Positions 7,937 to 12,406 of a DNA stretch of 64,000 bases are shown here, in pieces (positions within the stretch are counted from its first letter, which is position 1; each line of letters starts with the position of its first letter). The translations under genes were made by a program, and so were the position numbers. This DNA comes from Shewanella sp. 1CM18E (GTDB lineage Bacteria > Pseudomonadota > Gammaproteobacteria > Enterobacterales > Shewanellaceae), in NCBI RefSeq assembly GCF_023161665.1, contig NZ_JALNTW010000009.1:62001-126000 (forward strand), given 5' to 3'. The notes beneath the pieces were generated by a model. That model did not search any database, was not told the origin of the DNA, and saw only the letters and a list, made by a program, of their open reading frames with translations.

Positions 7937-7999
7937 ATATCTGTCACACAGCGGCAAACTGAAATTAGCATAAATAAAAATCGAACACTGGCTTGCTTA

Positions 8000-8045
8000 T
8001 ATGAAAAAACGTATATATTATTTGTCGTATATTCGCTTTTTCATA
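8000..8045. promoter_or_regulatory. Candidate ArsR operator/promoter upstream of the arsenic operon
   Basis: Arms TATGAAAAA and TTTTTCATA form a 9-bp inverted repeat spanning 46 bp. The heptamer CGTATAT occurs twice inside (8010-8016 and 8026-8032). It sits about 25 bases before arsR, where autoregulating ArsR repressors bind. Assignment is by position and symmetry only. Confidence 0.5.
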
Positions 8046-8068
8046 CTTAGTTAATTTGTCGAGAATTG

Positions 8069-8416
8069 ATGATGACACCTTTAACCTTTTTTAAAGCACT
8101 AGCAGATGACACCAGAATGCGCAGTTTACTGCTTATTCAAGCTGAGTCTGAACTTTGTGTTTGCGAGTTGATGGCAGCACTTGATGAGATCCAGCCAAAG
8201 GTCTCACGTCATTTAGCCCAGCTTAGAAAGCTTGGGTTATTGGTTGACCGTCGTCAGGGCCAGTGGGTTTTTTATAGCATTAATCCGCAGTTACCCAGTT
8301 GGGCAAATGAAATCTTACAGACTTTGGCTAAGGATGAAGCCGAACTTATTGGTGGCAATTTAACTAATCTTGGACAGATGGGCGATCGTCCTGAAAGAGT
8401 TAAACACTGCTGCTAA
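8069..8416 (+). CDS. arsR: ArsR-family arsenite-responsive repressor
   Basis: A winged-helix repressor of about 115 aa. It starts with the family signature [12 protein letters not shown] and has the metalloid-binding ELCVCEL motif in the DNA-recognition region (two Cys of the CxC type known to bind As(III)). It then has [14 protein letters not shown] and ends HCC. It is expected to repress its own operon until As(III) or Sb(III) binds. A TTG at 8066 and ATGs at 8069 and 8072 compete as start; 8069 has the best spacing from the GAG at 8061. It is the first gene of arsR-acr3-gapdh-arsJ. Confidence 0.93.
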
Positions 8417-8474: not shown

Positions 8475-9509
8475 ATGGGTATTTTTGAACGTTATTTAAG
8501 TGTTTGGGTAGGTCTAGCAATTTTAGCTGGTGTATTTTTGGGTAACTTAGCACCTGATACATTTGCCGTGGTTGCTGGGCTTGAATATGCCCATGTTAAC
8601 TTTGTAATTGCAGTGCTTATTTGGGTAATGATTTACCCAATGATGGTACAAATCGACTTTTCTGCTGTGAAAGATGTGGGCAAAAGCCCGAAAGGCTTGG
8701 TACTGACATTAGTCATAAACTGGTTGATAAAGCCGTTTACTATGGCTGCACTTGGTTGGTTATTCTTTAAAGTATTCTTTGTTGATTTTGTTGACCCACA
8801 AACAGCGAGCGAATACATAGCAGGTATGATTTTACTGGGCGTTGCGCCTTGTACTGCAATGGTATTTGTGTGGAGCCAGCTAACCAAAGGTGACCCTAAC
8901 TACACGCTAGTTCAAGTGTCAGTAAACGATCTTATTATGGTGGTAGCATTTGCGCCAATCACCGCACTGTTACTCGGTGTTAGTGATATCCAGGTGCCGT
9001 GGGCGACACTGCTTTCATCTGTTGGCCTGTATGTTGTGTTGCCGTTAGTTGCTGGTGTTATCACTCGCTATATGCTGCAGAAAAAAGGTGATGATAGTCA
9101 GGTCAATGCGTTTGTGGCTAAGTTAAAGCCATGGTCGATGGTAGGCTTGCTTGCAACTGTGGTGCTGCTATTTGGTTTTCAGGCTGAAACCATTATTGCT
9201 GAGCCACAAAATATTGCTCTGATTGCGATTCCGTTATTAATCCAAATTTACGGTATCTTCTTCATTGCATTTTATGCGGCGAAAAAAATGAAGCTAACCC
9301 ATAAAGTTGCGGCGCCAGCATGCATGATTGCAACATCAAACTTCTTTGAGCTTGCGGTTGCAGTGGCTATTTCATTATTTGGTTTACACTCAGGTGCAGC
9401 ATTAGCAACAGTGGTTGGTGTGTTAGTTGAGGTTCCGGTGATGTTGTCTTTAGTGGCAATAGCTAACCGCAGTCGCCATATGTTTGCCGAAGAGGAAGTA
9501 AGCAGCTAA
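8475..9509 (+). CDS. acr3: ACR3-family arsenite efflux permease
   Basis: A 344-aa inner-membrane protein with about ten helices. It has the ACR3 landmarks [10 protein letters not shown] in helix 2, [15 protein letters not shown] in helix 4 (the conserved Cys needed for arsenite transport) and [18 protein letters not shown] in helix 9. It exports As(III) using the proton motive force. The frame stays open upstream to 8370, overlapping arsR, but the ATG at 8475 gives the normal ACR3 N-terminus ([15 protein letters not shown]). It lies 58 bases after arsR. Confidence 0.95.
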
Positions 9510-9655: not shown

Positions 9656-10666
9656 ATGACAATCAAAATTGGTATCAACGGCTTCGGTAGAATGGGGCGT
9701 TTAGCATTAAGATCGGCTTGGCATAATAGCGATGTTGAATTTGTACAGATTAACGACCCAGCGGGTGATGCAACCACATTAGCGCATTTGCTGACATTTG
9801 ACTCTGTACACGGTCGCTGGTCTGAAGAAGCAACAGCTGAAGGCACTGATATTGTTATTGGTAACAAGCGTATTGCTACAACTCGCAATAAAGCGATTGC
9901 CGAAACAGATTGGTCAGCTTGTGACGTAGTGATTGAAGCCTCTGGGGTGATGAAAACTAAAGCCTTATTACAAGCCTATTTAGACCAAGGCGTTAAACGT
10001 GTGGTAGTGACTGCACCTGTGAAAGAAGAAGGCGTGTTGAATATCGTAATGGGAGTTAACCATGACCTTTATGATAAAGATATTCATCCAATCGTGACAG
10101 CAGCTTCTTGCACCACAAACTGTTTAGCGCCAGTGGTTAAAGTGATTCATGAAAAGATTGGTATCAAGCATGGCTCGATGACTACGATTCACGATATTAC
10201 TAATACTCAAACCATCTTAGATGCACCACATAAAGATCTGCGCCGTGCTCGTGCATGTGGATTGAGCTTAATCCCAACAACAACCGGTAGCGCAACTGCA
10301 ATCACTCATATTTTCCCTGAGCTAAAGGGCAAGTTAAATGGTCACGCAGTGCGTATTCCACTTGCAAACGCTTCTATCACTGACTGTGTGTTTGAAGTTG
10401 AGCGTGAAACGACTGAGGCAGAGGTTAACCAGTTGCTGCAACAAGCTGCAGCAGGCGAACTTAAAGATATTTTAGGCTATGAAGAGCGCCCATTAGTATC
10501 GGTTGATTATAAAACTGATCCACGCTCAAGCATTATCGATGCGCCTTCAACCATGGTGGTTAATGGCACTCAAGTTAAGTTGTATGTTTGGTACGACAAT
10601 GAATGGGGCTACGCTAATCGCACTGCAGAGCTGGCAATTATGGTTGGTAAAATGGATCAGGCTTAA
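9656..10666 (+). CDS. ArsJ-associated glyceraldehyde-3-phosphate dehydrogenase
   Basis: A 336-aa GAPDH with the NAD-binding [10 protein letters not shown] at the N-terminus and the active-site [10 protein letters not shown] around residue 155. It has the C-terminal [10 protein letters not shown]. In arsenic operons this enzyme accepts arsenate in place of phosphate and makes 1-arseno-3-phosphoglycerate, which ArsJ exports. The gene sits immediately upstream of arsJ, which identifies it as the arsenic-dedicated copy rather than the glycolytic one. Its [20 protein letters not shown] segment fits that subfamily. The gap to arsJ is unusually long (about 520 bp) because of tandem repeats. Confidence 0.93.
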
Positions 10667-10676
10667 ATATAAGAGC

Positions 10677-10741
10677 TTAGGAAGAGCAGGACGCTTCGCT
10701 TATAGATCCTAGGGCCTCGACCCTAGGTTCTAGGTTCTAGG
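10677..10741. repeat. REP-like intergenic element with CTAGG repeats
   Basis: A hairpin CCTAGGG / CCCTAGG (10709-10728 region) is followed by repeated TTCTAGG units. It is preceded by a GAGCAGGACGCTTCGCTT segment. The layout resembles short dispersed intergenic repeats seen in Shewanella genomes; that link is from memory and would need a genome-wide search. Confidence 0.45.
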
Positions 10742-10785
10742 AAAAGCCAAATTGGAATCGTGCCTGCTTTTTAGGTGGTTTGATC

Positions 10786-11188
10786 GTGCTAACAAAACTT
10801 CGTTCGTTGCCTGATAGCATTAAGCAGTATTTAATCGTTACCGGTGCCCCTATTTGAGAGGGCATTTCGCTCGTTATTTAATTCTTAGAACATGAACTTT
10901 TGCTATATAGAGAGCTAATCGTGCTAAAAAACTTCGTTCATTACCAGATAGCATTAAGCAGTAGTTAACTGTTACTGGAGCCCCTATTTGAGGGGGTATT
11001 ACGCTCGTTATTTAATACTTAGAACATGAACTTTGCCATTATAGAGAGTCAATTGTGCTAACAAAACTTCGTTCATTACCGGATAGCATTAAGCAGTATT
11101 TAATCGTTACTGGAGCCCTTATTTGAGTGGGCATTTCGCTTGTTATTTATTTTTTAGAACATGAACTTTGCCATATAGAGAGTCAATT
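10786..11188 (+). repeat. Three tandem degenerate copies of the arsJ start region
   Basis: Units at 10786-10920, 10921-11054 and 11055-11188 (135, 134, 134 bp) each begin with the same sequence as the first 18 or so codons of arsJ (GTGCTAACAAAACTTCG). Each continues into a diverged tail and ends with the next unit's ribosome-binding region (ATAGAGAG). Units 1 and 3 encode 23-aa mini-ORFs (10786-10857, 11055-11126) identical to ArsJ over about 20 residues and closed by TGA. Unit 2 has lost one base and stops after 15 codons. A short GCCC/GGGC stem spans the mini-ORF stop in units 1 and 3, with a related CCCC/GGGG stem in unit 2. The fourth repeat is the real gene. Confidence 0.9.
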
Positions 11189-12406
11189 GTGCTAACAAAA
11201 CTTCGTTCATTACCGGATAGCATTAAGCAGTATTTAATCGTGACCGGTAACTACTGGGCATTTACGCTTACCGATGGCGCATTGCGTATGTTGGTGGTGC
11301 TGCATTTCTATGACTTAGGTTACACGCCACTAGCGATTGCTATGCTGTTTCTGTTTTACGAAATCTTTGGCGTTATTACTAACCTTGTTGGTGGCTGGTT
11401 AGGCGCAAGGTTAGGGCTTAACCGCACCATGAACATCGGCCTGGGTTTGCAGATTGTGGCGCTTTCTATGCTGTTGTTGCCAACTGCAATGCTGACGGTA
11501 CCTTGGGTGATGGCGGCGCAGGCGATGTCGGGGATCGCCAAAGATCTTAATAAGATGAGCGCTAAGAGTGCCATTAAAACATTGGTGCCTAAAGGCGCAG
11601 AAGATAAGCTCTATCGTTGGGTTGCTATGCTTACCGGCTCTAAGAATGCATTGAAAGGTGCTGGTTTCTTCTTAGGTGGGGTATTGCTATCTACAGCTGG
11701 GTTTAAAGGCGCGATTGCGATTATGGCTGCGGCACTGCTGCTAGTGTGGATCTATAGCATTGTGAGTCTCAAAGCGGATTTAGGCAAAGCCAAATCTAAA
11801 CCAAAGTTTACTCAGATATTTTCCAAAAGTGACAGTGTGAATATTCTGTCGGCGGCGCGATTATTCTTATTTTCCGCTCGCGATGTATGGTTTGTTATTG
11901 CTTTACCTGTGTTCTTGGCCAGTCAGCTTGGTTGGGAGCATAGCAGCGTAGGTACTTTTCTTGCTGCTTGGGTCATTGCCTATGGCATGGTGCAATCTTT
12001 CGCACCAGCATTAACCGCCAGAAAAGGTGCACCAGACGGCAAGGCTGCAACTATATGGGCTGGTGTGCTGACATTAGTGACTAGCATACTTGCAGTCGTC
12101 ATGTTTACAGGTTGGATTGCACCACAGGTTGCGCTGATTGTCGGACTTATGGTGTTTGGTGCGGTATTTGCGATTAACTCGTCATTGCATAGCTATTTAA
12201 TCGTTAGTTATGCGGGCGAAGATGGCGTATCGCTTGATATCGGCTTTTACTATATGGCTAACGCTATGGGCCGTTTACTGGGCACCATTTTGTCTGGCTG
12301 GGTTTATCAAGAAGCGGGCTTATCGGCTTGTTTAATGATTTCTGCAGCTATGTTGCTTACAACGTTTATTATCTCCTTTAAGTTGCCTCGCGCTTCTATG
12401 CGCTAA
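11189..12406 (+). CDS. arsJ: ArsJ, MFS organoarsenical (1-arseno-3-phosphoglycerate) efflux permease
   Basis: A 405-aa major-facilitator protein with about twelve helices. It carries the ArsJ signature GNYWAFTLTDGALRMLVVLH at the N-terminus, GGWLGARLGLNRTMN in the helix 2-3 loop and SGIAKDLNKMSAKSAIK. It exports the unstable arseno-ester made by the neighbouring GAPDH, completing arsenate detoxification. The GTG at 11189 has GAGAG 6 bases upstream and matches the repeated mini-ORF starts. An in-frame TTG at 11168 would add seven residues and lies inside the repeat. It is followed by a hairpin terminator. Confidence 0.93.
   Translation: MLTKLRSLPDSIKQYLIVTGNYWAFTLTDGALRMLVVLHFYDLGYTPLAIAMLFLFYEIFGVITNLVGGWLGARLGLNRTMNIGLGLQIVALSMLLLPTAMLTVPWVMAAQAMSGIAKDLNKMSAKSAIKTLVPKGAEDKLYRWVAMLTGSKNALKGAGFFLGGVLLSTAGFKGAIAIMAAALLLVWIYSIVSLKADLGKAKSKPKFTQIFSKSDSVNILSAARLFLFSARDVWFVIALPVFLASQLGWEHSSVGTFLAAWVIAYGMVQSFAPALTARKGAPDGKAATIWAGVLTLVTSILAVVMFTGWIAPQVALIVGLMVFGAVFAINSSLHSYLIVSYAGEDGVSLDIGFYYMANAMGRLLGTILSGWVYQEAGLSACLMISAAMLLTTFIISFKLPRASMR

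Follow-up and report, generated by a model that had tools for sequence, protein, structure and literature searches.

Tandem copies of the arsJ start region upstream of arsJ in Shewanella: an old, recombining array with a possible effect in cis

The spacer upstream of arsJ, an arsenic-export gene, in Shewanella sp. 1CM18E contains three truncated tandem copies of the ribosome-binding and start region of that gene (hereafter, decoys), and similar arrays that differ in copy number are found at arsJ in other Shewanella genomes. Such arrays are more widespread than the window alone could show and are, as judged from the sequences, an old and actively reshuffled repeat. The explanation preferred here, to which we give an even chance, is an old short tandem duplication that has been kept alive and homogenized by recombination and that would have a modest effect in cis on arsJ. 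The term "window" refers to the entire 64,000-nucleotide stretch of DNA that was analyzed; all window features given below are on its forward strand.

The ars cluster opens with arsR (8072–8416), which encodes an ArsR/SmtB regulator and was matched by the NCBIfam subfamily model PRK10141 at 117 bits, above the cut-off. The ATG at 8072 is its probable start; an arsR ATG is found at the equivalent place in 19 of 19 loci. The gene of the arsenite efflux transporter, acr3 (8475–9509), was matched by TIGR00832 (432 bits) from residue 36 of an ORF at 8370, and its probable start is the ATG at 8475. It is followed by gap, the gene of an ArsJ-associated GAPDH (9656–10666; NF033735, 580 bits), the 522-bp gap-arsJ spacer (10667–11188), and arsJ (11189–12406; NF033734, 619 bits), which encodes 405 amino acids from a real GTG start that is aligned in relatives. 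An amino-acid carrier gene (NCBIfam naming) follows arsJ, and the order arsR-acr3-gap-arsJ is kept in all 19 loci examined. Upstream of arsR, at 7990–8070, there is an AT-rich inverted sequence (ATATGAAAAAACGTATATATTATTTG...CGTATATTCG) that appears similar in the 19 loci by eye and that is probably the ArsR operator. Between gap and the first decoy, a CTAGG-rich repetitive stretch (10679–10747) features CTAGGTTCTAGG, which recurs in the gap-arsJ spacers of relatives. This sequence is frequent in several of them (the L008, L012, L194, and L195 spacers carry CTAGG-type repeats) and was found once, in L203, in 800 kb of stretches of the same genome outside the window.

All three decoys lie inside the gap-arsJ spacer. 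Their GTG codons are at 10786, 10921, and 11055, and that of the real arsJ is at 11189, for spacings of 135, 134, and 134. Unit 1 (core, 10773–10869) has a strong SD-like sequence, AGGTGG, at 10773–10778; by eye, that of the real arsJ (TAGAGAG) looks weaker. The GTG of unit 1 opens a 23-codon ORF that ends in the TGA at 10855–10857. Unit 2 (core, 10921–11003) carries a one-base frameshift, and its ORF runs for 15 codons to 10968. Unit 3 (core, 11055–11138) again has a 23-codon ORF, closed by the TGA at 11124–11126. A tail sequence, treated below, is located at 10851–10863, 10985–10997 (with one mismatch), and 11120–11132 in the respective units. A repeat search without gaps returned three 134-nt copies that are 100, 86, and 76% identical to the first; with gaps allowed, the identity among the three units is 86–90% (differences of 10–14%). 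A four-copy, 74-nt repeat family takes in the real arsJ start, to which unit 3 is 97% identical. When the real start was locally aligned with its own upstream region, the score was 116; the best of 50 shuffles scored 34. Thus, the three tandem start-region copies at intervals of 134–135 bp that the original prediction had described were borne out by the positions, the repeat search, and the shuffle-tested alignment, and its account of the ORFs (TGA-closed in units 1 and 3, frameshifted in unit 2) was also accurate. The stems that it had placed at the mini-ORF stops can be drawn, but they are not clearly better than chance (z-scores of -1.57, -0.81, and -0.03). As head-to-tail part-gene copies beside an intact arsJ, the units constitute a tandem partial gene duplication.

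A sequence model built from 19 decoys of nine species was used to search 129 Shewanella genomes with strict filters (E <= 0.01); given its origin and these filters, very different decoys could be missed. The model matched 28 of the 129 genomes, always at arsJ. Full decoys were present in nine of them (G000, G088, G077, G032, G004, G072, G019, G069, and G021), again always at arsJ; a tenth genome (G091) has a decoy relic, and in each of the remaining 18 (17 genomes plus G014) the only match falls on the real arsJ start. Three decoys were counted in the window, L004, and L036; two in L007, L037, L017, and L019; and one in L033 and L035. These counts exclude the chimeric units of L037 and an incomplete copy in L004 (1424–1462), which has a tail but no start codon and is upstream of the three counted decoys. 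No decoys were found in S. fidelis (L034), L008, L011, L012, L013, L014, L018, L020, L022, or L023. When 80 arsJ loci drawn from a collection of genome contigs were each compared to themselves, a clear upstream copy was evident in four (L033, L035, L036, and L037), all from Shewanella; L084 was marginal (35 against 31), and no start copy was found in the other 75.

Copy number therefore ranges from 0 to about 4 among relatives. The nearest named record is from S. pneumatophori (ArsJ, 99%), and this closest pair already differs, with three decoys in the window, as assembled, and one in S. pneumatophori. The comparison of copy number in relatives thus supports the repeated unequal duplication that had been proposed from the window's sequence. 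Several near relatives lack decoys, and the array is therefore dispensable. A DNA search of the whole 41-contig draft found the array nowhere else in its own genome, where the exact tail motif also was found at this locus only. In 12 genomes, the exact motif was found away from the arsJ locus in three, fewer than matches to a control pattern. A plasmid search gave 37 records, and the best 20 of the 37 all match from query position 623 on, i.e. in arsJ and not in the decoys. A dispersed repeat or mobile element was rejected because the genome has the array at arsJ only and the model matches of the 28 genomes are all at arsJ.

The decoys are set apart from arsJ by a 16-nt tail (TATTTGAGNGGGCNTT, with few variants) that is common to all of them at the point where arsJ reads on. 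After codon 20, the AACTACTGGGC of arsJ is replaced in every decoy by a TATTTGAGNGGGC-like sequence. The variants are TAATTTGAG in L007, TTTGTG in the first decoy of L019, a final T in unit 2 of the window, one base less in the second decoy of L004, and GGGGGAC in the second decoy of L017. Among the 19 decoys, 6 of the 16 tail columns are identical in all and 13 in at least 17; the respective numbers for the next 19 columns are 0 and 1. Between the decoys of the abyssi clade and the others, the tail is identical at 15/16 positions, compared to 6/21 in the leader, 1/5 at positions 97–102, and 8/19 after the tail. Fourfold-degenerate columns that are invariant across the nine species number 6/129 in arsJ and 3/135 in gap. 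Taken by species, with ties counted as not invariant, 8/16 tail columns are invariant (P = 2e-7 against the fourfold sites of the same species), in a stretch that was chosen after inspection and that is partly (GGGC.TT) shared with arsJ; by simple majority, with ties given to the first listed, the count is 12/16. It remains 8/16 if L035 is left out (P = 6e-7), and L007 and L037 alone agree at 14/16 (P = 1.5e-5). The non-shared part is only ATTTGAG, of whose seven columns three are invariant in nine species (ties out, P = 3e-3) and all seven in four lineage representatives (P = 2e-8). Conservation of the tail while synonymous sites are near saturation and the decoy-only neighbors have diverged suggests constraint. 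The evidence for this constraint is moderate; an older transfer between lineages could mimic it. By eye, the tail was rejected as an ArsR operator: the sequence common to the 19 arsR upstream regions is of the ATATATGAAAAA-CATATATA type and lacks the GGGC tail.

The divergence of the host genes bears on the age of the array. At the fourfold sites of arsJ, the window differs from the decoy-bearing species by 0.58–0.70 (0.21 for S. pneumatophori), and those of gap and acr3 differ by 0.52–0.68 in the same comparisons. Because the same decoy-only tail is present in lineages with near-saturated synonymous sites, arrays of this kind are old. The original prediction had treated the units as decaying relics, the last of them recently duplicated. 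This description holds only in part: the units are more than decaying remnants of recent events, and gene conversion would account just as well for the close match between unit 3 and arsJ.

The start blocks were compared by distance. Their mean distance is 0.101 from a decoy to its own arsJ and 0.245 to arsJ starts of other clades (16 of the 19 decoys), and decoys differ from one another by 0.066 within a species vs. 0.229 between clades. Copies from one genome thus resemble each other more closely than copies from different species do, with the single decoy of L035 as a clear exception and an overlap between the window and marinintestina clades; the values support concerted evolution, in which the start blocks would be homogenized with the host arsJ. 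The real start closest to each of the 16 decoys is its own in eight cases, that of another species in six (the first decoys of the window, L033, and L035 and all three of L004), and tied in two (the second of the window and the third of L036). Five of the six other-species cases belong to the window and marinintestina clades, whose starts are mutually close and whose decoys share 15/21 leader positions. The sixth, from L035, lies at 0.259 from its own arsJ start vs. 0.121 from that of L036, a pattern that suggests transfer. The acr3-gap spacer of L186 (G069) is close to those of the window and S. pneumatophori and unlike that of L007, hinting at transfer or at shared ancestral variants within the ars cluster. 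The invariant columns of the start block follow a two-of-three-bases pattern, which fits arsJ coding constraint passed on by recombination and not constraint on the decoys themselves; conservation of a decoy peptide was rejected, as the frames are broken. Unusual conservation of the real arsJ start was rejected as well, the third-position values being 0.44 vs. 0.47 in decoy-bearing pairs and 0.44 vs. 0.48 in pairs without decoys.

Duplication across the spacer is also recorded in S. abyssi (L037, 2301–2780), where tandem units join arsJ codons 9–20 to the 3' end of gap at a GGGGAA-like junction; in these fusions, GTGACGGGG is the point where the arsJ start is joined to the end of gap. They are direct evidence of tandem duplication across the spacer and indicate that it keeps generating duplications. 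The arsJ leader of S. fidelis, which has no decoys, resembles the leader of first decoys elsewhere. This likeness fits decoy loss, but it also fits an ancestral state.

The history that we prefer can be outlined as follows. Slippage or short-junction recombination would probably have produced, in an ancestor of one Shewanella clade, a tandem duplication of the segment from the arsJ leader to about codon 27, and a small insertion in the copy would have created the tail, TATTTGAGNGGGC. Unequal exchange may then have expanded, contracted, and sometimes erased the array, while recombination would keep most decoy start blocks similar to that of arsJ in their own or a sister species and the decoy-only tail was retained across lineages. 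Arrays missing from sister species may have been lost by recombination between direct repeats; if it took place between two starts, the decoys would vanish without a trace.

The array probably has a modest effect in cis on arsJ. The V. cholerae arsR-varG-varH-arsJ operon is described as having a single promoter upstream of arsR (PMC9601151), so arsJ expression there would depend on reading through the upstream genes. If this arrangement holds here, arsJ needs transcription through the long spacer. The most plausible effect is that ribosomes load on some of the decoy starts in this part of the ArsR-controlled transcript; they could shield the spacer from Rho termination or RNase attack, or otherwise tune the output of ArsJ, for which decoy copy number would be an easily changed knob. 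In bacteria, each start is bound by ribosomes without regard to the others; the effect could therefore go in either direction, and a lowering of arsJ expression by the decoys, as originally expected, is not favored over the opposite.

A neutral hypervariable repeat has a good, if less than even, chance of accounting for the same observations. According to this alternative, the spacer is duplication-prone and its repeats are homogenized by recombination but functionless, and the likeness of the tails is due to descent plus transfer between Shewanella lineages. The patchy presence of decoys (with only a relic in L016), the transfer-like signals for L035, spacers full of other repeats, and ORFs that are closed elsewhere or lack a GTG in 15/19 decoys are in keeping with it. 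It accords less well with the tail, in which the decoys of the abyssi clade match the others at 15/16 positions, whereas neighboring decoy-only stretches have diverged and the fourfold sites of arsJ and gap are nearly saturated in the same genomes. A fully regulatory array, in which the gene keeps recombinationally refreshed copies of its start, each closed by the conserved 16-nt element, and in which copy number tunes the distal gene of the operon, is considered unlikely.

More specific functions fare worse. The tail could be a promoter, with TTGAG(A/G/T) as the -35 hexamer and a TTTAAT-like -10 hexamer 17–18 nt downstream, so that each unit would add an arsJ promoter. With a relaxed score (from an approximate matrix), each of the six non-abyssi loci has a tail site within its top six promoter-like sites, and in L033, L007, L035, and the window such a site ranks first. 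Nonetheless, the tails do not reach the best score of 100 shuffles at any locus, most of the -10 hexamers lack A at position 2, and a strict scan of the window's spacer found no promoter. L037, L017, and L019 have no good -10 despite their conserved tail; a sigma-70 pair with 16–18 nt spacing was not found in every copy, being weak in six loci and poor in the three of the abyssi clade. The promoter is therefore improbable. Attenuation of arsJ by a leader peptide or an RNA hairpin, with the mini-ORFs and the GC-rich stem as the leader, had been offered in the original prediction and is consistent with the 23-codon ORFs that close at a drawable stem in units 1 and 3. Neither the ORF nor its stop is conserved, given that a GTG ORF ends at the tail TGA in 4/19 decoys, 11 end elsewhere, and 4/19 have no GTG start (by eye, in one of the latter, the second decoy of L017, an ATG in another frame runs to the same TGA). 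The hairpin is neither conserved (the common fold has -1.1 kcal/mol and 4 pairs) nor unusually stable, the 19 decoy-to-next-start folds being generally no more stable than shuffles (z-scores of -1.6 to 2.1). The window's spacer contains no terminator-like site, there was no Rfam match, and no alternative RNA structure that is conserved or unusually stable was found. Attenuation is thus unsupported and very improbable. That the array is an artefact of assembly is hardly conceivable: the window's genome is a 41-contig draft, but the units differ from one another by 10–14% with gaps, and like arrays are present in the assemblies of nine species, one of them (G019) in a contig of 5,306,509 bp.

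A survey of direct repeats covered 864 kb of this genome, made up of the window and 40 further stretches of 20 kb each. Ten pairs of at least 40 nt and at least 75% identity were found, three of which are the arsJ array. Of the other seven, three are within ORFs, one overlaps tRNA-Val (L200), two (L202 and L218) touch no ORF of at least 100 amino acids, and one (L234) covers the 3' end of a gene. The last is a ca. 218-bp tandem duplication (L234, 13232–13690) over the 3' end of a transporter gene that, by eye, is EamA-like. None of these last four extends over the start of an ORF of at least 100 amino acids, so that among the pairs inspected (these four and the arsJ array) a protein-gene start is included in the array only.

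In bacteria, a short tandem duplication is commonly regarded as transient. The one described here is carried by nine species, in most of which its copies still follow the start of the parent gene, and its short element diverges far less than its decoy-only neighbors. Should this element work, it would show that a bacterium can retain truncated gene starts for regulation and that the number of such starts can adjust the output of a gene in an operon; otherwise, the array offers a clean natural example of a gene and its fragments evolving in concert.

The decoys share with leader-peptide attenuators and bacterial uORFs that short ORFs, each with a ribosome-binding site, precede a regulated gene; they differ in having no conserved frame, stop, or alternative hairpins. 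Among the matches listed, the titles and abstract beginnings of open-licence PMC literature on Shewanella arsJ, ArsJ operons, partial start-codon duplications, and concerted intergenic repeats described no such array, and phrases for duplicated or decoy ribosome-binding sites had no match in that literature. As described in PMC9601151, the V. cholerae var operon likewise groups the genes of ArsR, ArsJ, and an arsenate-linked GAPDH; here, acr3 is present and the gap-arsJ spacer is long and contains decoys. The TAACTGA arrays of Beggiatoaceae, for which post-transcriptional action is proposed in PMC4679880, are also tandem repeats just upstream of start codons, but those are heptamers at many genes, whereas the present 134-bp unit derives from one gene and is confined to one locus. 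In the account given in PMC3486894, the S. aureus sigH duplication is, like ours, tandem; it ends inside the coding sequence, is formed at short direct repeats, and is lost more often than formed. In rare cells, that short-junction duplication gives rise to a chimeric gene that is expressed, whereas in Shewanella short truncated starts have been retained across species beside a real gene that is intact.
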